Source: Bradyrhizobium zhanjiangense (GTDB lineage: Bacteria > Pseudomonadota > Alphaproteobacteria > Rhizobiales > Xanthobacteraceae). From it: DNA of 64,000 nucleotides. Below are positions 25,739-34,413 of the stretch, one piece after another. The position numbers and the translations under genes are program-made. Within the stretch, counting starts at the first letter, position 1, and each line of letters starts with the position of its first letter. The stretch lies in NCBI RefSeq assembly GCF_004114935.1, contig NZ_CP022221.1, positions 248,001-312,000 on the forward strand, in the 5' to 3' direction. The notes beneath the pieces were generated by a model. The model had not been told where the DNA came from, searched no databases, and saw nothing but the letters and a program-made list of their open reading frames with translations.

Positions 25739-26500
25739 ATGGATCGGCCGGGCGAAACCACGCATTTTGGCTTCAGGGACGTCCCCTTAGGGGACAAGCA
25801 GACGCTGGTGAACGATGTGTTTCACAGCGTGGCCTCGCGCTATGATTTGATGAACGACCTGATGTCCGGTGGCCTGCACCGGGTCTGGAAGGACATCATG
25901 ATCAACGCGCTCGACCCGCCGAGGAACGACCGGCCGTTTGCGCTGCTCGACGTCGCCGGCGGCACCGGTGACATCTCGTTCCGCGCCGCCAAGGCGGCAG
26001 GCTCCGGCTTCCATGCCACCGTCTGCGACATCAACACCGACATGCTCGCCGTGGGCCGCGAGCGCGCCATGAAGCGGCATTTCGAGACCCGGGTTGATTT
26101 CGTCGAGGGCAATGCCGAAGCGCTCGCCTTCGCCGATCGCAGCTTCGATGCCTATACGATTGCTTTCGGCATTCGCAACGTGCCGCAGATCGACCTTGCG
26201 CTCCGCGAGGCCTATCGTGTGCTCAAGCCCGGCAGCCGTTTCCTATGCCTGGAATTCTCGACCGTCGAGATGCCTGGCCTCGATCGCCTCTATGACTTGT
26301 TCTCGTTCAAGGTGATCCCGCCGCTTGGCCGCATGGTCACGGGCGACGCCGAGTCCTACCAGTACCTGGTCGAGTCGATCCGCAAGTTTCCAAAGCCAGG
26401 CGTCTTCGCCGACATGATTCGCGACGCCGGCTTTTCCCGCGTCAGCTGGCAGACGCTCAGCGGCGGCATCGTCGCACTGCATTCAGGCTGGCGTTTGTGA
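25739..26500 (+). CDS. ubiE: Demethylmenaquinone/2-methoxy-6-polyprenyl-1,4-benzoquinol methylase UbiE
   Basis: UbiE is the SAM-dependent C-methyltransferase of ubiquinone synthesis (and menaquinone where made). The 253-residue product has the UbiE/COQ5 signatures [18 protein letters not shown] and the SAM loop [13 protein letters not shown], then [20 protein letters not shown] near residue 145 and a typical [12 protein letters not shown] end. Its stop overlaps the GTG start of ubiB by 4 bp, so the two quinone genes are translationally coupled. Confidence 0.96.
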
Positions 26501-28071
26501 TCTCTGCCATTAGCCACATTGCGCGCCTGACCCGCGCCGCGTTCGTGTTCGCGCGCGAAGGCGTGTTCGGCTCGGTCGATCGGAGCCTGGTGCCGCCGCC
26601 GGGACAGCTCGCGCTGAAGCTGGCGCGGCTCGTCGAGCGGCGCGGCGTCAAGCACGGTCCGCGGATATCGCGCGCCCTCACCCGAATGGGCCCGGCCTAT
26701 CTCAAGCTCGGGCAGTTCCTGGCAACACGCCCCGACGTCGTCGGCGTCATCATGGCGCGCGACCTCGAAAGCCTCCAAGACCGCCTGCCGCCATTTTCGC
26801 AAGCCGAAGCGGAGGCGGCGATCACGTCGTCGCTGGAACGGCCGCTAACGGATGTGTTTGCGAGCTTCGGCCCACCGGTCGCCGCCGCCTCGATCGCGCA
26901 GGTGCATCGCGGCGAAGTCCTGCGCGACGGCGTCCGCAAGCCGGTCGCGATCAAGGTGCTCCGGCCCAACGTCGCCGCACGTTTCCGCCGCGACCTCTCC
27001 GACTTCTTCTTCGTCGCGCACAAGGCCGAAGCCTATTCTTCCGAGGCACGGCGCCTGCGCCTCATCGAAGTCATCAACACCATGTCGCGCTCGGTCGCGA
27101 TGGAGATGGATCTGCGGCTGGAGGCCGCGGCGCTGTCGGAGATGGCGGAGAACACGCGCGACGACCCTGATTTCCGCGTGCCGATCGTCGACTGGGATCG
27201 CACCACGCACAACGTGCTGACGATGGAGTGGATCGACGGCATCGCGCTGAACGATCACAAGCGCCTTGCAGAGGCGCAGGTCGACCTGCCCGATCTCGGC
27301 CGCAAGGTGATCCAGAGCTTCTTGCGGCACGCGCTGCGCGACGGCTTCTTCCACGCCGACATGCATCCGGGCAACCTGTTCCTGGATGATACCGGCCGTC
27401 TCGTCGCGGTCGATTTCGGCATCATGGGCCGGCTCGGGATGAAGGAGCGGCGCTTCCTCGCCGAGATCCTGCTCGGCTTCATCACCCGCGACTACCGCCG
27501 CGTCGCCGAGGTGCATTTCGAGGCGGGCTATGTGCCCGCGCATCATTCGGTCGAGAATTTCGCGCAAGCGATCCGCGCCATCGGCGAGCCGATCCACAAC
27601 CGCACCGCCGAGGAGATCTCGATGGCGCGGCTGTTGACGCTGCTGCTCGAGGTCACCGGCCTGTTCGACATGAGGACGCGGCCCGAGCTGATCCTGCTGC
27701 AAAAGACTATGGTCGTGGTCGAGGGCGTGGCGCGCGGCTTCGATCCCAAGCTCGACATCTGGAAGGTCGCGGACCCCGTGGTGCGAGAATGGATCGAGCG
27801 CAATCTCGGGCCGATCGGCCGGGTCCAGGGCGCGCTGGCGGGGACCGGAGACATCGCGCGCGTGCTGATGCGCCTGCCGGAGATCGCCGAGCGGTCGGTG
27901 AAGGTGCTGGAGCAGCTCGAGACCATGACGCGGGAGGGCATAGGGCTGTCGCCGGAGAGCATCGCCGCGATGGGCCGCAGCGAGAGCCGCAAGAACCGCG
28001 GGCGCACCGTGGCGCTCTGGATCATCGCCGCGACCTTCATCGGCATCCTGATCGCCATCCGGAATCTGTGA
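26497..28071 (+). CDS. ubiB: Ubiquinone biosynthesis accessory kinase-like protein UbiB
   Basis: UbiB is a membrane-anchored atypical kinase/ATPase needed for ubiquinone synthesis. The 524-residue protein shows [11 protein letters not shown] (the KxGQ motif), the Ala-rich loop [22 protein letters not shown] and VDFGIMG. A C-terminal transmembrane helix ([17 protein letters not shown]) is visible. It starts at GTG 26497 inside the ubiE stop. Its stop codon (28069-28071) lies inside the palindrome that precedes coaBC. Confidence 0.94.
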
Positions 28072-28087
28072 TTGCACTGCAATCACA
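28067..28087. promoter_or_regulatory. Perfect 21-nt palindrome, candidate operator for the RHH domain of CoaBC
   Basis: TGTGATTGCA and TGCAATCACA flank a central C (28077). The site overlaps the ubiB stop and ends 40 nt before the coaBC ATG and about 30 nt before its ribosome site. Ribbon-helix-helix proteins such as FitA bind palindromes upstream of their own genes. Unlike the other palindromes in this window it has no second copy that I can see and is relatively AT-rich. The operator role is inference. Confidence 0.55.
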
Positions 28088-28127
28088 CGGATGATAGCAT
28101 CGCGATCATTCCGTGCTGGAGGGCGTC

Positions 28128-29579
28128 ATGGCAAGCCTGACCATCCGCAAGCTCGACGACGCCGTCAAAACCTATCTGCGGCTGCGCTCGGCCAAGAACC
28201 GCAGGTCGGTCGAGGAAGAGGTCCGGGTCATCCTGCGGGAGCTCATCGAGGGCCGCGAGGAGCCCCTGACGCCGTTTGCGGTGCCGCCTGCGGCAGCCTC
28301 AGCCCCGATACCCCAACGTATCAGCGCCGCTCCCGAGGCCAGCGTCACCCTGATCATCGGCGGCGGCATTGCGGCCTACAAATCGCTCGACCTGATCCGA
28401 AGGCTCAAGGAACGGCGCGTCGAGGTCCGCTGCGTGTTGACCAAGGCAGCGCAGCAATTCGTCACGCCGCTGGCGGTGAGCGCGCTGTCGCATGAGCGCG
28501 TCTACACCGACCTGTTCGACCCCCAGAGCGAGTTCGACGCCGGCCACATTCGCCTCGCGCGCGACTGCGACCTGATCGTGGTGGCGCCGGCGACCGCCGA
28601 CCTCCTGGCCAAGATGGCGAACGGCCATGCCGACGATCTCGCCAGCGCCATCCTGCTCGCGACCAATCGCAAGGTGCTGCTGGCGCCTGCGATGAACCCG
28701 CTAATGTGGAACAACGCGGCGACGCGCCGCAACGTCGCGCAGCTCCAGCGCGACGGCGCGGTGCTGATCGGCCCAAATTCCGGCGAGATGGCCGAGGCCG
28801 GGGAGGCCGGAACCGGCCGCATGTCGGAGGCGATCGAGATCGCCAATGCCGCCGAGCGGCTGCTGCGGCCGCCGGTGCCGCGCCCACTCGCCGGCAAGCG
28901 CGTGCTGATCACCGCAGGACCCACGCACGAGCCGATCGATCCGGTGCGCTACATCGCCAACCGCTCTTCCGGCAAGCAGGGCTTTGCCATTGCCGCCGCC
29001 GCCCAGGCCGCCGGCGCCGAGGTGATTTTGGTGAGCGGCCCGGTCGATCTCAGCGATCCCCAGGGCGTGACGGTGAAGCATGTCGAATCGGCACGGCAGA
29101 TGCTGGAGCAGGTACAGGCCGCGCTCCCCGCCGACATTGCGATCTTCGCCGCCGCCGTCGCCGACTGGCGCGTCGCCAACGAGGGCGAGCAGAAGCTGAA
29201 GAAGACGTCGGCCGGCATGCCACCGCTTCAGCTGGTCGAAAACCCCGACATCCTCGCCACCATCTCCAAGCTGACCGACAAGCGCCCGCCGCTGGTGATC
29301 GGCTTCGCCGCCGAGACCGAACACCTCATCGACAACGCCAAATCAAAACTCGCGCGCAAGGGCTGCGACTGGATCGTCGCCAACGACGTCTCGCCGGCCA
29401 CCGGCGTGATGGGCGGCGACCGCAACACTGTGCACCTGATCAGTCGCAAGAATGGTGAGAAGAATGGCGAGATCGCAGTTGATTCCTGGCCGGTGATGAC
29501 CAAGGAACAGGTCGCCATCGAACTGGTCGCGCATGTCGCGAGGAGCGTGGCCGACAAATCCCGGGAGCCGGCATCTTGA
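28128..29579 (+). CDS. coaBC: CoaBC (phosphopantothenoylcysteine synthetase/decarboxylase) with N-terminal FitA-like ribbon-helix-helix domain
   Basis: CoaBC joins cysteine to 4'-phosphopantothenate and decarboxylates the product to phosphopantetheine for coenzyme A. Of 483 residues, 1-40 are not Coa[22 protein letters not shown] then [14 protein letters not shown] matches the FitA antitoxin ribbon-helix-helix domain. A Pro/Ala linker runs to ~72. The flavoprotein CoaC domain (73-250) has GGGIAAYKS, active-site His140 and PAMNPLMW (Asn190). The CoaB domain (~255-470) has [25 protein letters not shown]. Ala224 stands where E. coli has catalytic Cys158. The ATG has GGAGG 5 nt upstream. It overlaps dut. 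Confidence 0.92.
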
Positions 29580-30034
29580 GCACCAAAGTCACGGTCGAAC
29601 TGCAACGCCTCGCCCATGCCGAAGGCCTGCCGCTGCCTACCTATCAGACCGCCGAGGCCGCCGGCCTCGATCTGATGGCTGCGGTTCCGGACAGCGAGCC
29701 GTTGACGCTCGCGCCCGGCCACTACGCGCTGGTGCCGACGGGCCTCGCAATCGCCTTGCCGCCGGGCCACGAGGCCCAGGTGCGGCCGCGCTCGGGGCTT
29801 GCCGCCAAGCACGGCGTCACCGTGCTGAACTCGCCGGGCACGATCGACGCGGACTACCGCGGCGAGATCAAGGTGATCCTGATCAACCACGGCCAAGCCC
29901 CCTTCGTGATCAAGCGCGGCGAGCGCATCGCGCAGATGGTGATCGCGCCCGTGGTGCAGGCCGCGCTGGTTCCCGTGGCCACCTTGTCGACAACCGATCG
30001 AGGCGCCGGCGGTTTTGGTTCCACCGGCCGCTAG
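29576..30034 (+). CDS. dut: dUTP diphosphatase
   Basis: Dut hydrolyses dUTP to dUMP, keeping uracil out of DNA and supplying dTMP synthesis. The 152-residue trimeric-type enzyme contains the five motifs, including [35 protein letters not shown] and the C-terminal [11 protein letters not shown] that closes the site. It starts at TTG 29576, overlapping the coaBC stop (TTGA), with GGGAG upstream; no ATG lies in a suitable place. The coaBC-dut pairing is conserved in many bacteria. Confidence 0.95.
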
Positions 30035-30158: not shown

Positions 30159-30391
30159 GAGCGCACCTTCATCGAGGCAAGCACTCCGCATTGCCCCGCT
30201 AACGCGCGAGAGCTCCAGCCGAATCACCCGAAGAACTACGTGCGTTGGAGCATCGTGCCCGGCATTTTTGGGGGCCGCCATTGCGTTCACGATCTGGACT
30301 CTTACCGCCGGAGTCGCAGTGAGGGTATTGTCTTTTGATTCGCGCGCGACGGGGGTCGCCGCGCGCAAATCCGTGCGATCTTGGGGCAACT
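30159..30391 (+). promoter_or_regulatory. Intergenic stretch before divL
   Basis: About 230 bp of non-repeat sequence lie between the composite repeat and the chosen divL start. I see no convincing gene. A TTG at 30335 could extend divL by 19 residues, but that extension (Arg-rich) is unlike a membrane-protein N-terminus. The divL promoter should lie here. Confidence 0.4.
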
Positions 30392-32896
30392 ATGTCAGGC
30401 GTGATCGTGTCGATGCGTCGGACGCTGTTGTCGTGCACATCGTTGGCGCGCAACGGCTTGTTGGGGAGCGCTTTCGCGGCGCTGCTGCCGGCTGCGCCCG
30501 CTGAGGCCGCCGACCTCGTCGACACTCTCTCCATCATGCTGGATTTCAACCGGCAGGAACTCGCGGTGCTCGCCACCGCGCTGGCCTTGCTCGGCTTCTC
30601 GGTGGTGGCCGCGATCCTGTTGATGCGCACGCGCGTGCGCACGGCGGACAACGAGGCGCGGCTGCGCGCCCGGATCGGGGAACTGCAACTCCAGGCCGAC
30701 CGCTTCGGCGCGCTGCTGTTCGCCGAGCCGCAGGTTCTGATCTCCTGGCCGGCCGGCGACAATCGCGCGCAGATCTCCGGCGACATCTCGATGGTGCTGC
30801 CGCGCGATTCTTCGCCGCAGCGCGTGCTCGCATTCGGAACCTGGCTGCCGCCGGAACCGGCGCTGCAGATGGATCACGCCGTCGATGCGCTGCGCCAGCA
30901 CGGCGACGGGTTCCAACTGACGCTGACCACCGCGCATGGCCATACGCTGGAAGCCATCGGCCGCGCCATCGGCGGCCAGGCCATTGTCAGGATTCGCGAA
31001 CTCTCCGGGCTGCGGCGCGATCTGGCCGAGACCAATCTGCGTTACAAGGCGCTCTCCGACGAGACCGAGATGCTGCGCGGCTTCGCCGCCGCTTCTCCAT
31101 GGCCGATCTGGGCCAAGGGCGAGAACGGCGCACTGACCTACGCCAACCCCGCCTATGTCCGCGCGACCGAGGCGAACAGCGTCACCGATGCCCAGGAGCG
31201 CAAGCTCGAGCTGCTCGACAGCGCCGACCGCACCGCAATGGACCGGGGACTGAAGGACGCCGCCAACTTCAACTCACGGCTGCCGATCGTGATCGGCGGC
31301 GAGCGGCGCATGTATGACGTGCGCGCAGTCAATGTCGGCAGCGGCAGCGTCGGCATCGCCATCGACGCCAGCGAAGCGGATGCGCTGAGCTCGGCGCTCG
31401 TGCGCATGGCGGAGGCGCATCGCCGCACGCTCGACCAGCTCTCCTCGGGCGTGGCCGTGTTCGACGGTCAGCGGCGCCTTGCCTTCTACAACGATTCCTA
31501 CCGGCGCCTGTGGGACCTCGACCGCACCTTCCTCGACGCCAACCCTGATGATTCCAGCGTGCTCGACCAGCTCCGCGCCGCGCGCAAATTGCCGGAGCAG
31601 CCGGACTTCCGCGCCTGGAAGGCCAAGCTGCACGAGGCCTATCGCGCGGTCGAGACCGCCAAGGACACCTGGTTCCTGCCCGACGGCCGCGCCCTCTCGG
31701 TCGTCACCACGCCGAACCCGGAAGGCGGCGTCACCTATCTGTTCGACGACGTCACCGAGAGCCTCGACCTAGCCCGCCGCTTCGACGGCCTGATCCGCGT
31801 GCAGCGCGAGACGCTCGACAGCCTCGCCGAAGGCGTCGCGGTGTTCGGCAGCAACGGCAAGGCGCAGCTGTTCAACCCGGCCTTCGTGCGGATGTGGAAG
31901 CTGTCGAGCGATGCCATGCGCGGCGAGCCGCATATCCAGACGGTCGAAGGCTGGTGCCATCAGCTGTTCGACGACCCCGGCGTCTGGCGCCAGATCCGCG
32001 AAGCCATCACCTCGATCGAGAACCGCGCCGACATCCCGCTCAAGCTGGAACGCAAGGACGGCAGCGTGCTTCATGGCATGATCCGCCCGCTGCCTGACGG
32101 CGCGACCATGTTGACGTTCCAAGACATTACCGACACCGAGAATGTCGAGCGCGCGCTGCGCGAGCGCAACGAGGCGCTGGAGGCCGCCGACCAGATGAAG
32201 GTGGATTTCGTCCACCACGTCTCCTACGAGCTGCGCTCGCCGCTCACCACCATCATCGGCTTCGCGCATTTCCTCAGCGATCCCTCAACCGGGCCGCTGA
32301 CGCCGAAGCAGGCCGAATATCTCGACTACGTCACCAAATCGACCAACGCGCTGCTGGCGCTGACCAACAACATCCTCGATCTCGCCACCATCGACGCCGG
32401 CGCGATGAAGCTGGAACTCGGCCCGGTCGACGTCAGCAAGACCATCGAGCTCGCCGCCGAGGGCATCCAGGACCGCCTCGCCACCGACCGCATCCGCCTC
32501 AAGGTCGAGATCGCGCCCGACATCGGCAGCTTCATCGGCGACGAGAAGCGCGTGGTGCAGGTGCTCTATAACCTCCTCGCCAACGCCGTCGGGTTTTCTC
32601 CACAGGATTCCACCGTCGGCATCAGCGCACGCCGCACCGAACGCAGCGTGGTCTTCACCGTGACAGATTCCGGGCCTGGAATACCTGCCGACATGAAGGA
32701 CAAGGTGTTCAACTGGTTCGAAAGCCGCTCGCAGGGCTCGCGTCACCGCGGCGCCGGGCTCGGCCTGTCGCTGGTGCGCTCCTTCGTCGAGCTGCATGGC
32801 GGCAAGGTGCGGGTGGATTCGATCGTCGGCCGGGGCACGGTCGTGATCTGCGATTTCCCGACCGACCAGGCGGCGCATCGCGACGCCGCCGAATGA
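30392..32896 (+). CDS. divL: DivL-type PAS sensor kinase homolog with Tyr in the H-box
   Basis: The 834-residue protein has an N-terminal hydrophobic segment and a transmembrane helix (LAVLATALALLGFSVVAAILLM). Three or more PAS-like segments follow (~230-330, ~350-450, ~470-580), then a kinase core. The H-box reads HHVSYELRSPLTT: Tyr612 replaces the phospho-accepting His, the hallmark of Caulobacter DivL. The ATP site is intact (NLLANAV, DSGPGIP, GAGLGLSLV). DivL acts with DivK and CckA to control the CtrA cell-cycle pathway at the cell pole. Its stop overlaps the next gene (ATGA). The start is uncertain between 30392 and 30413. Confidence 0.88.
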   Translation: MSGVIVSMRRTLLSCTSLARNGLLGSAFAALLPAAPAEAADLVDTLSIMLDFNRQELAVLATALALLGFSVVAAILLMRTRVRTADNEARLRARIGELQLQADRFGALLFAEPQVLISWPAGDNRAQISGDISMVLPRDSSPQRVLAFGTWLPPEPALQMDHAVDALRQHGDGFQLTLTTAHGHTLEAIGRAIGGQAIVRIRELSGLRRDLAETNLRYKALSDETEMLRGFAAASPWPIWAKGENGALTYANPAYVRATEANSVTDAQERKLELLDSADRTAMDRGLKDAANFNSRLPIVIGGERRMYDVRAVNVGSGSVGIAIDASEADALSSALVRMAEAHRRTLDQLSSGVAVFDGQRRLAFYNDSYRRLWDLDRTFLDANPDDSSVLDQLRAARKLPEQPDFRAWKAKLHEAYRAVETAKDTWFLPDGRALSVVTTPNPEGGVTYLFDDVTESLDLARRFDGLIRVQRETLDSLAEGVAVFGSNGKAQLFNPAFVRMWKLSSDAMRGEPHIQTVEGWCHQLFDDPGVWRQIREAITSIENRADIPLKLERKDGSVLHGMIRPLPDGATMLTFQDITDTENVERALRERNEALEAADQMKVDFVHHVSYELRSPLTTIIGFAHFLSDPSTGPLTPKQAEYLDYVTKSTNALLALTNNILDLATIDAGAMKLELGPVDVSKTIELAAEGIQDRLATDRIRLKVEIAPDIGSFIGDEKRVVQVLYNLLANAVGFSPQDSTVGISARRTERSVVFTVTDSGPGIPADMKDKVFNWFESRSQGSRHRGAGLGLSLVRSFVELHGGKVRVDSIVGRGTVVICDFPTDQAAHRDAAE

Positions 32897-34413
32897 CCGA
32901 ACCAACCACATTCTCCGTCGCGCTCCACAACGAGACGGCCACTGCGCAATTGATGGCCGACCTCGCGCTGCTGGTCGGCCCGGGCGATGTCATCACGCTC
33001 ACCGGTGATCTCGGCGCCGGCAAGACCGCGGCCGCCCGCGCCATGATCCGCTATCTCGCCGGAGACGATGCGCTGGAAGTGCCGAGCCCGACCTTCACGC
33101 TGGTGCAGGGCTACGAGCTGCCGCCGTTTCCGGTGATGCATGCCGACCTCTACCGTGTCGAGGACGAGAGCGAGCTCGAGGAGATCGGACTGTCGCCGCT
33201 ACCGGACGCAACCCTGGTTCTGATCGAATGGCCAGAGCGTGCGCCGTCGGCGATGCCGGAAGATCGCATCGACATCGCGCTGACGCACCGGCCGGCGCTG
33301 GGCTCGAATGCACGCGCGGCCGACATCACCGGTTACGGCAAGGGTGCAGCGCAAGTCGCGCGGCTGAAGGCGCTGCGCGAATTCCTCGATGCATCCGGCT
33401 ATATCGACGCGACGCGACGGCGCATGAATGGCGACGCCTCGACGCGCTCCTATGCGCGGCTGCTGCGCGACGGCGAAATCGTCATCCTCATGAACTTTCC
33501 GCAGCGGCCCGACGGCGCGGCCCTCTATAACGGAAGATCCTACAGCGCTGCGGTGCATCTCGCCGAAAACGTCAAGCCGTTCGTCGCCATCGACGAAGGC
33601 CTGCGCGCACAGGGAATCTCCGCACCCGCGATCCATCACTCCGATCTCGATCATGGCTTCCTGATCACCGAAGACTTCGGCAGCGAAGGCGTGATCGAAG
33701 GCGATCCGCCGCGCCCGATCGCCGAACGTTATGAAGCTGCGACCGACGTGCTGGCCATGCTGCACAGCAGGACGTTGCCGGGGACGCTGCGGCTGGCGGA
33801 CCAGACCTACACCATTCCTGTCTTCGACATCGAGGCGATGCTGATCGAGATCGGGTTAATGCCGGAATGGTATCTGCCCGACCGCAACGCGCCGCTGAGC
33901 GACGAGAAGCGCGCGGAATTCTTCGCGATGTGGCGCGAGCTGCTGAAGAAACCGCTGGCGGCGCCAAGAACCTGGGTCATCCGCGACTATCACTCGCCGA
34001 ACCTGATCTGGCTCGGCAATCGCACCGGCATCGCGCGCGTCGGCGTGATCGACTTCCAGGACGCCGTGCTCGGTCCGCAATCCTACGACGTGGTGTCGCT
34101 GCTCCAGGACGCCCGCATCGACGTGCCGGAAAGCCTCGAGCTGACGCTGCTGTCGCGCTACATCAAGGCGCGCCGCGCGGCTGATGCGAGCTTCGATGCG
34201 GCCGGATTCGCCGAGCTCTACGTCATCATGTCCGCGCAGCGAAACACCCGCCTGCTCGGCACCTTCGCCCGGCTCAACCGCCGCGACGGCAAGCCGCATT
34301 ATCTGCGTCACCAGCCGCGGATCTGGACCTATCTCCAGCGCTCGCTCGCGCATCCCGCGCTCACCGATCTGCGCGAGTGGTATCTCGCCAACGTCCCGCC
34401 GCCGCAGCCCTAG
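32893..34413 (+). CDS. tsaE: TsaE-AmgK fusion: tRNA t6A ATPase subunit plus amino-sugar/aminoglycoside-type phosphotransferase
   Basis: The 506-residue protein joins two enzymes. Residues ~1-150 are TsaE, the P-loop ATPase (GDLGAGKT at ~40-47, PSPTFTLVQGY, HADLYR) that drives N6-threonylcarbamoyladenosine formation on tRNA A37. Residues ~160-506 are an APH/AmgK-like kinase (MNGDASTRSYARLL, WVIRDYHSPNLIWL with the catalytic Asp, VGVIDFQDAVLGPQSYDVVSLL). AmgK phosphorylates the anomeric carbon of N-acetylmuramate or GlcNAc for cell-wall recycling. The MurU-type gene two genes on supports that role. This fusion is known from other Rhizobiales. Confidence 0.92.
   Translation: MTEPTTFSVALHNETATAQLMADLALLVGPGDVITLTGDLGAGKTAAARAMIRYLAGDDALEVPSPTFTLVQGYELPPFPVMHADLYRVEDESELEEIGLSPLPDATLVLIEWPERAPSAMPEDRIDIALTHRPALGSNARAADITGYGKGAAQVARLKALREFLDASGYIDATRRRMNGDASTRSYARLLRDGEIVILMNFPQRPDGAALYNGRSYSAAVHLAENVKPFVAIDEGLRAQGISAPAIHHSDLDHGFLITEDFGSEGVIEGDPPRPIAERYEAATDVLAMLHSRTLPGTLRLADQTYTIPVFDIEAMLIEIGLMPEWYLPDRNAPLSDEKRAEFFAMWRELLKKPLAAPRTWVIRDYHSPNLIWLGNRTGIARVGVIDFQDAVLGPQSYDVVSLLQDARIDVPESLELTLLSRYIKARRAADASFDAAGFAELYVIMSAQRNTRLLGTFARLNRRDGKPHYLRHQPRIWTYLQRSLAHPALTDLREWYLANVPPPQP

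Follow-up and report, generated by a model that had tools for sequence, protein, structure and literature searches.

A FitA-like ribbon-helix-helix domain fused to CoaBC in Bradyrhizobium zhanjiangense and a predicted operator upstream of its own gene

CoaBC acts in CoA biosynthesis and is presumably an essential enzyme, and its gene in Bradyrhizobium zhanjiangense raises the question of why such an enzyme should begin with the DNA-binding domain of an antitoxin. This gene (coaBC, 28128-29579, + strand, 483 aa from ATG) lies within a 64,000-nucleotide stretch of the genome (the window), to which positions refer unless stated otherwise. The original prediction held that the enzyme had become its own repressor, and this idea gains strong support from the comparison of related genomes, in which a predicted operator co-occurs with the ribbon-helix-helix (RHH) domain and is nearly confined to coaBC within the genus. 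We consider it very probable that CoaBC is its own regulator, in which an RHH domain derived from a fitAB module would bind two palindromes and most likely represses coaBC-dut. Autogenous repressor enzymes are already known as a kind; what is new here is the antitoxin-derived domain on CoaBC, and no description of an RHH-CoaBC fusion was found in the literature searched, which lay mostly outside subscription journals. In a natural lineage CoaBC seems to have been connected to its own promoter, and the parts, the predicted operator and the candidate ancestors (fitA-fitB-coaBC) all exist in sequenced genomes, so that the conversion of an antitoxin into a housekeeping regulator may be traced here.

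The presence of the domain is readily established. Pfam model PF22513 (FitA-like_RHH) matches residues 2-38 with an E value of 9.6e-14 when the whole protein is scanned, and residues 1-74 alone give 3.8e-15 (56 bits against a curated cut-off of 27), so that this HMMER check bears out the FitA-type RHH predicted for the CoaBC N-terminus. The RHH segment comprises residues 1-41 (28128-28250, + strand) and is followed by a variable linker rich in Ala, Pro and Ser (residues 43-72; 28254-28343, + strand), recognized by its low pLDDT, its dN/dS and its composition (A 20%, P 15% and S 11% across 61 fused loci). After it, the flavoprotein domain CoaC (residues 73-235; 28344-28832, + strand; PF02441, E 4.8e-30) and the CoaB (DFP) domain (residues 254-438; 28887-29441, + strand; PF04127, E 1.2e-71) complete the protein. 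The TIGR00521 CoaBC model scores 390.8 bits over residues 73-470 (cut-off 219.7), and because this match starts at residue 73, where an ordinary CoaBC had been proposed to begin, residues 1-72 are an addition to the ordinary enzyme. The whole genome holds a single CoaBC match and a single PF22513 match, and both are this fused protein.

The added segment was also compared with known structures. A single-sequence phmmer search of the PDB gave FitA (2h1o) weakly (E 0.14), and a profile of 30 fused N-termini gave FitA structures 2h1o and 2bsq at 7e-9 and 8e-9, with Mnt next at 0.011. The strand arginine Arg7, which we take to be one of the residues that contact DNA in FitA, shows no variation across all 30 aligned fused domains. 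In the protein model the RHH helices span residues 11-24 and 28-40 (or 28-42), and the strand, which in RHH folds requires a dimer, is unassigned in this monomer; residues 43-67 are disordered (pLDDT below 50), and CoaC and CoaB are folded with confidence. Foldseek with the 46-residue RHH model returned no match at E <=0.001; its leading entries were antitoxin CopASO, SvtR, Arc and CopG, the PutA RHH came at rank 30, and FitA was not among the best 50 listed. The first structural match of the full model is CoaBC of Mycobacterium smegmatis (6tgv_A, E 3.6e-34). Both catalytic domains are common to this CoaBC/Dfp (6TGV) and to RHH-CoaBC; unlike the former, RHH-CoaBC has 72 extra N-terminal residues with the RHH and a predicted site before its own gene.

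Whether the segment is translated can be judged from its start and from the selection upon it. A Shine-Dalgarno-like GGAGG (28118-28122, + strand) stands 5 nt before the coaBC ATG, and a motif of this kind precedes coaBC in 33 of 53 loci examined; an in-frame GTG lies five codons 5' of the ATG, and a start there would still cover the RHH segment. Across 14 close Bradyrhizobium loci, mean identity is 94.5% for the RHH, 71.7% for the linker and 94.2% for CoaC, and the corresponding dN/dS values are 0.139, 0.363 and 0.075, the RHH value being less certain in this set because synonymous divergence is low (0.20 vs 0.32-0.34 elsewhere). The same order of segments gives 0.146, 0.571 and 0.132 in 13 wider Bradyrhizobium loci and 0.030, 0.415 and 0.060 in six Mesorhizobium loci. 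Purifying selection acts on the RHH, and much less on the linker. The original prediction had named a start beyond residue 60, which would leave the segment unmade, as the finding that would count against it; such a start is unsupported, and a mis-called ATG is rejected on the conservation of the RHH and its dN/dS of 0.03-0.15, together with the GGAGG.

Within a single order the extension is widespread. Among coaBC loci fetched from 80 relatives for a survey of N-termini, it was present in Bradyrhizobium, Nitrobacter, Afipia, Rhodopseudomonas and Pseudolabrys, and also in Phyllobacterium, Mesorhizobium, Zhengella and Nitratireductor; it was absent among the surveyed Microvirga, Ensifer, Methylobacterium, Bosea, Parvibaculum, Roseibium and others. 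When residues 1-75 were searched against proteins, 1696 matched at E <=0.001, and the best 120 of these 1696 all combine PF22513 with the flavoprotein domain. For 297 genomes of the order, the matches listed include at least 18 whose alignment begins at residue 1 or 2, and 11 of the 11 listed from the genus itself belong to these. The class-wide search matched 231 of 289 genomes, and among the matches listed the source genome alone aligns from residue 1. Automated annotation already recognizes parts of the fusion, one relative being labelled 'plasmid stability protein/3-polyprenyl-4-hydroxybenzoate decarboxylase'. A survey of 176 loci (the window plus sets of 80 and 95, partly overlapping) comprised 62 fused loci, nine with a FitB-like PIN gene before coaBC, three fused to a helix-turn-helix (HTH) domain, one with higBA and 101 with none of these, the last figure including an HTH fusion (L133) and an extension without assignment (L148). 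On a tree of 115 CoaBC cores the fused state changes at least six times, with four changes forced by well-supported branches and with gain and loss indistinguishable.

The upstream palindrome mentioned in the original prediction is indeed present, as TGATTGCACTGCAATCA (predicted operator 1, 28069-28085) and TGATAGCATCGCGATCA (predicted operator 2, 28092-28108). The general form is TGATNGCA-n-TGCNATCA, searched as TGATNGCANTGCNATCA, and the half-site TGATAGCA is what we take to be FitA's own site; a literature search for this half-site as a FitA site found nothing. Predicted operator 1 overlaps the ubiB stop, with its far end 59 nt from the coaBC ATG; predicted operator 2 has one mismatch, is centred 23 bp from the first and is conserved among the majority of close Bradyrhizobium loci compared. 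In the 9.34 Mb source genome the exact pattern occurs in one place, before coaBC, and a search at one mismatch added operator 2 and four other places (L085-L088), the backwards-pattern control giving none. Of these four candidates for a wider regulon, three lie inside long open frames, and the remaining one (L086, C1:6661842-6661858 of the genome) is close to where a long frame begins on the opposite strand and is possibly a weak second operator target. In the genus, the exact palindrome was found in 20 of 40 genomes at 21 places and the exact 17-mer is absent from the other 20; the backwards pattern was found in none of the 40. Twenty of the 21 sites (19 fetched plus our own) lie no more than about 62 nt 5' of a fused coaBC ATG; the computed distances are 36-60 nt, those for reverse-oriented loci being counted to the near edge of the site and corresponding to about 57-62 nt at its far edge. 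The 21st (G614, L227) is not at coaBC and overlaps the stop of a 293-aa frame.

Beyond exact matches, the best 17-mer in the 110 nt upstream of 61 fused loci had no mismatch in 33, one in 14, two in five, three in five, four in three and seven in one. Dinucleotide shuffles of the upstream DNA produced two mismatches in 0.33% and three in 2.3% of cases and never one or fewer; none of 100 unfused loci had an upstream 17-mer with three mismatches or fewer, all having at least four. Neighbouring half-sites mostly form inverted pairs with a spacing of 9 bp (33 cases), and in 12 cases another pair follows at 14 bp. One fused locus (L026) has nothing like the operator near its ATG. Another (L094) is a variant FitA-CoaBC fusion that begins MGTITVRN; its RHH is followed by a longer stretch resembling an antitoxin, and its site is altered, reading TGACGGCATTGCTGTCA.

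The association between domain and site can be counted across loci. Of the 53 fused loci in the first set, the window among them, 50 had a half-site within 110 nt, and none of its 27 unfused loci had one within 200 nt. When the survey was widened, a half-site lay within 420 nt of the CoaC core in 58 of 62 fused loci and in four of 101 unfused ones, the four being L030, an out-of-frame fusion, and L109, L171 and L185, which have one half-site each and are outside the tree. In L030, an Afipia metagenome-assembled genome, a 53-aa RHH frame runs from ATG and ends before CoaBC in a different frame, a break that is either an assembly error or real. Among 112 tree loci, 62 have both RHH and half-site, five have the RHH without an exact half-site (L022, L025, L090, L094, L098), none has the site alone and 45 have neither. 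This count excludes two pairs with a PIN gene and no detected RHH (L132/L210 and L150/L211, of which L150 has an exact site); L038, whose contig begins inside the domain, was left out of operator counts, and L039, L103 and L206, in which the core motif was not found, were left out of the tree. The loci are not all independent because the genome sets overlap (L067 and L121 look alike). A tree-aware comparison gave five supported pairs, of which a mean of 4.5 agree and none oppose, with p 0.0625, the floor for five pairs, so that this test was unable to reach 0.05. Few independent origins and a test at its floor are what might be said for the idea that the site belongs to some other regulator and that its co-occurrence with the RHH was inherited by chance; we regard this as highly improbable, since the same site stands before standalone fitA genes in distant families and the fused CoaBC is the sole PF22513 protein of its own genome.

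Which genes the predicted operators would serve follows from their position. The 5' neighbour is ubiB (26497-28071, + strand; PF03109, E 8.6e-77), which precedes the fused coaBC in 59 of 62 fused loci, and the start of dut (29576-30034, + strand; PF00692, E 4.6e-36) overlaps the coaBC stop, so that dut is expected to be under the same regulation. Control of ubiE-ubiB, also suggested originally, was abandoned: the exact and the one-mismatch site are at the ubiB end and no site at one mismatch or fewer is found upstream of ubiE, which points to coaBC-dut as the genes served. By Pfam, no PIN gene adjoins coaBC, the neighbours being ubiB and dut, and the genome's five PIN matches all lie away from it (the nearest about 412 kb off), in agreement with the earlier statement that no PIN toxin is adjacent. 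By eye, a large frame resembling a PAS-type sensor kinase lies 3' of dut at 30335-32896, and a single frame at 32893-34413 resembles TsaE fused to a phosphotransferase.

The direction of the regulation is a separate matter. A consensus promoter scan gave no + strand promoter at the operator site, and TTGCAC-17-TAGCAT can be picked by eye as a weak -35/-10, so that we only infer an overlap with, or occlusion of, a promoter. This negative scan, and the half-site TGCAATCA that in Mesorhizobium sits directly against the ATG start codon, would also suit an RHH that binds its sites and activates transcription or tunes translation. We think this improbable, given that the characterized FitAB/VapBC systems and PutA are autorepressors (PMC3920265, PMC3384007, PMC5293562).

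The likely source of the domain is preserved in other genomes at the same place. Seven of the nine PIN loci carry both fitA and fitB between ubiB and an unfused coaBC, the fitB stop meeting the coaBC start in several of the seven, and Pfam confirmed FitA and PIN in both pairs tested (L177 and L090). Before these standalone fitA genes, the best match in a 130-nt stretch that opens shortly ahead of the ubiB stop is exact in L177, has one mismatch in L123 and L134 and two in L090 and L145, and is weaker in L129 (three) and L098 (four). The site before standalone fitA and that before the fusions is shared across distant families. Two exact palindromes followed by just the C-terminal part of a PIN gene precede coaBC in L150/L211, apparently a decayed fitAB module. 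In the tree of CoaBC cores, fused, fitAB and empty loci are intermixed in a clade of genus g61 and Mesorhizobium, and L078 and L089, unfused loci of the genus-g61 clade without fitAB, have no site at four mismatches or fewer. The site accompanies FitA, free or fused, and the fusion has the look of a module from which the toxin disappeared.

The fate of the toxin-binding tail is consistent with such a loss. A P[LHF]GG motif of this tail is seen by eye in most standalone FitAs at these loci and is absent from all 61 of 61 fused extensions. The best reading, from comparison of loci, is that the fused RHH represents a domesticated antitoxin: a FitAB-type toxin-antitoxin module would once have sat between ubiB and coaBC, loss of the toxin and of the antitoxin's toxin-binding tail would have followed, and the DNA-binding part would have been joined in frame to CoaBC, the fusion thus probably arising from fitAB and not the reverse. 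The five PIN-family matches elsewhere in the genome could be taken to mean that the fused RHH still serves as antitoxin to an unlinked PIN toxin, a reading that the missing tail, the variable linker and the lack of a PIN gene nearby make very hard to sustain.

Known systems suggest how a domesticated FitA domain on CoaBC might work. FitA binds DNA through its RHH, aided by the toxin, which bridges FitA dimers (PMC3920265, PMC3384007), and mycobacterial CoaBC forms a dodecamer that CoA and CoA thioesters inhibit (PMC7794376). RHH dimers held by the CoaBC oligomer would bind the paired TGATNGCA/TGCNATCA palindromes before coaBC, with the oligomer bridging them as the toxin does in FitAB, and the bound RHH would repress coaBC-dut, so that the level of CoaBC would limit its own synthesis. 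Because RHH domains dimerize and CoaBC is itself dodecameric (PMC7794376), the RHH might instead merely tether or cluster CoaBC, on DNA or through extra dimerization, and have no part in regulation; a site near-exclusive to the region upstream of coaBC that tracks the RHH over 112 loci makes this quite unlikely.

The nearest parallel for an autoregulating enzyme is PutA (trifunctional proline utilization A), a flavoenzyme with an N-terminal RHH that is the autogenous repressor of its own operon (PMC5293562). Like PutA, RHH-CoaBC joins enzyme and N-terminal RHH in one chain, here with an operator predicted upstream of its own gene; it differs in enzyme and pathway, in having a FitA-like RHH of PF22513, in its operator and in an antitoxin origin traceable at the same locus. 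With FitAB/VapBC it shares a FitA-type RHH and a palindromic operator upstream, and fitA-fitB occur at the same ubiB-coaBC junction; unlike those systems it has no toxin gene and no recognizable toxin-binding tail, and its RHH is fused to a metabolic enzyme.

Other DNA-binding domains have also been joined to CoaBC in the Hyphomicrobiales. HTH_3 (PF01381) is fused in frame before CoaC in L076 (E 1.6e-8), L143 (2e-9) and L164 (1.2e-9), and likewise in L133 (E 7.8e-7), where a perfect 11-bp inverted repeat, reached in none of 2000 shuffles, ends just before the ATG. Protein searches with L076 and with L225, the full-length gene of L133, found three and 11 proteins respectively, all with PF01381 and both CoaBC domains. 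As in RHH-CoaBC the DNA-binding domain is at the same end of CoaBC, and unlike RHH-CoaBC these proteins have an unrelated DNA-binding fold and another palindrome; such separate fusions hint at repeated emergence of this arrangement. More tentatively, and as a possibility that we would not favour at present, CoaBC may be a transcription switch of the CoA pathway, akin to the flux sensor also named in the original prediction, in which CoA thioesters, CTP, phosphopantothenate or FMN state would set RHH occupancy of both operators, the enzyme itself would thereby sense the demand on its pathway, the oligomer would be a bridging co-repressor in place of the toxin, and the ubiB-coaBC junction would recurrently capture RHH and, separately, HTH domains.

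Two further loci carry additions of other kinds before CoaC. An extension of about 70 aa in L148/L226 has no Pfam match and by eye looks helical and HTH-like. In L103, two genes lie between ubiB and coaBC, in the region about 680 to 36 nt ahead of the CoaC core: one for a HigB-like toxin (PF05015) and one that is HigA-like, the latter sharing the CoaBC reading frame and separated from it by a single stop codon.
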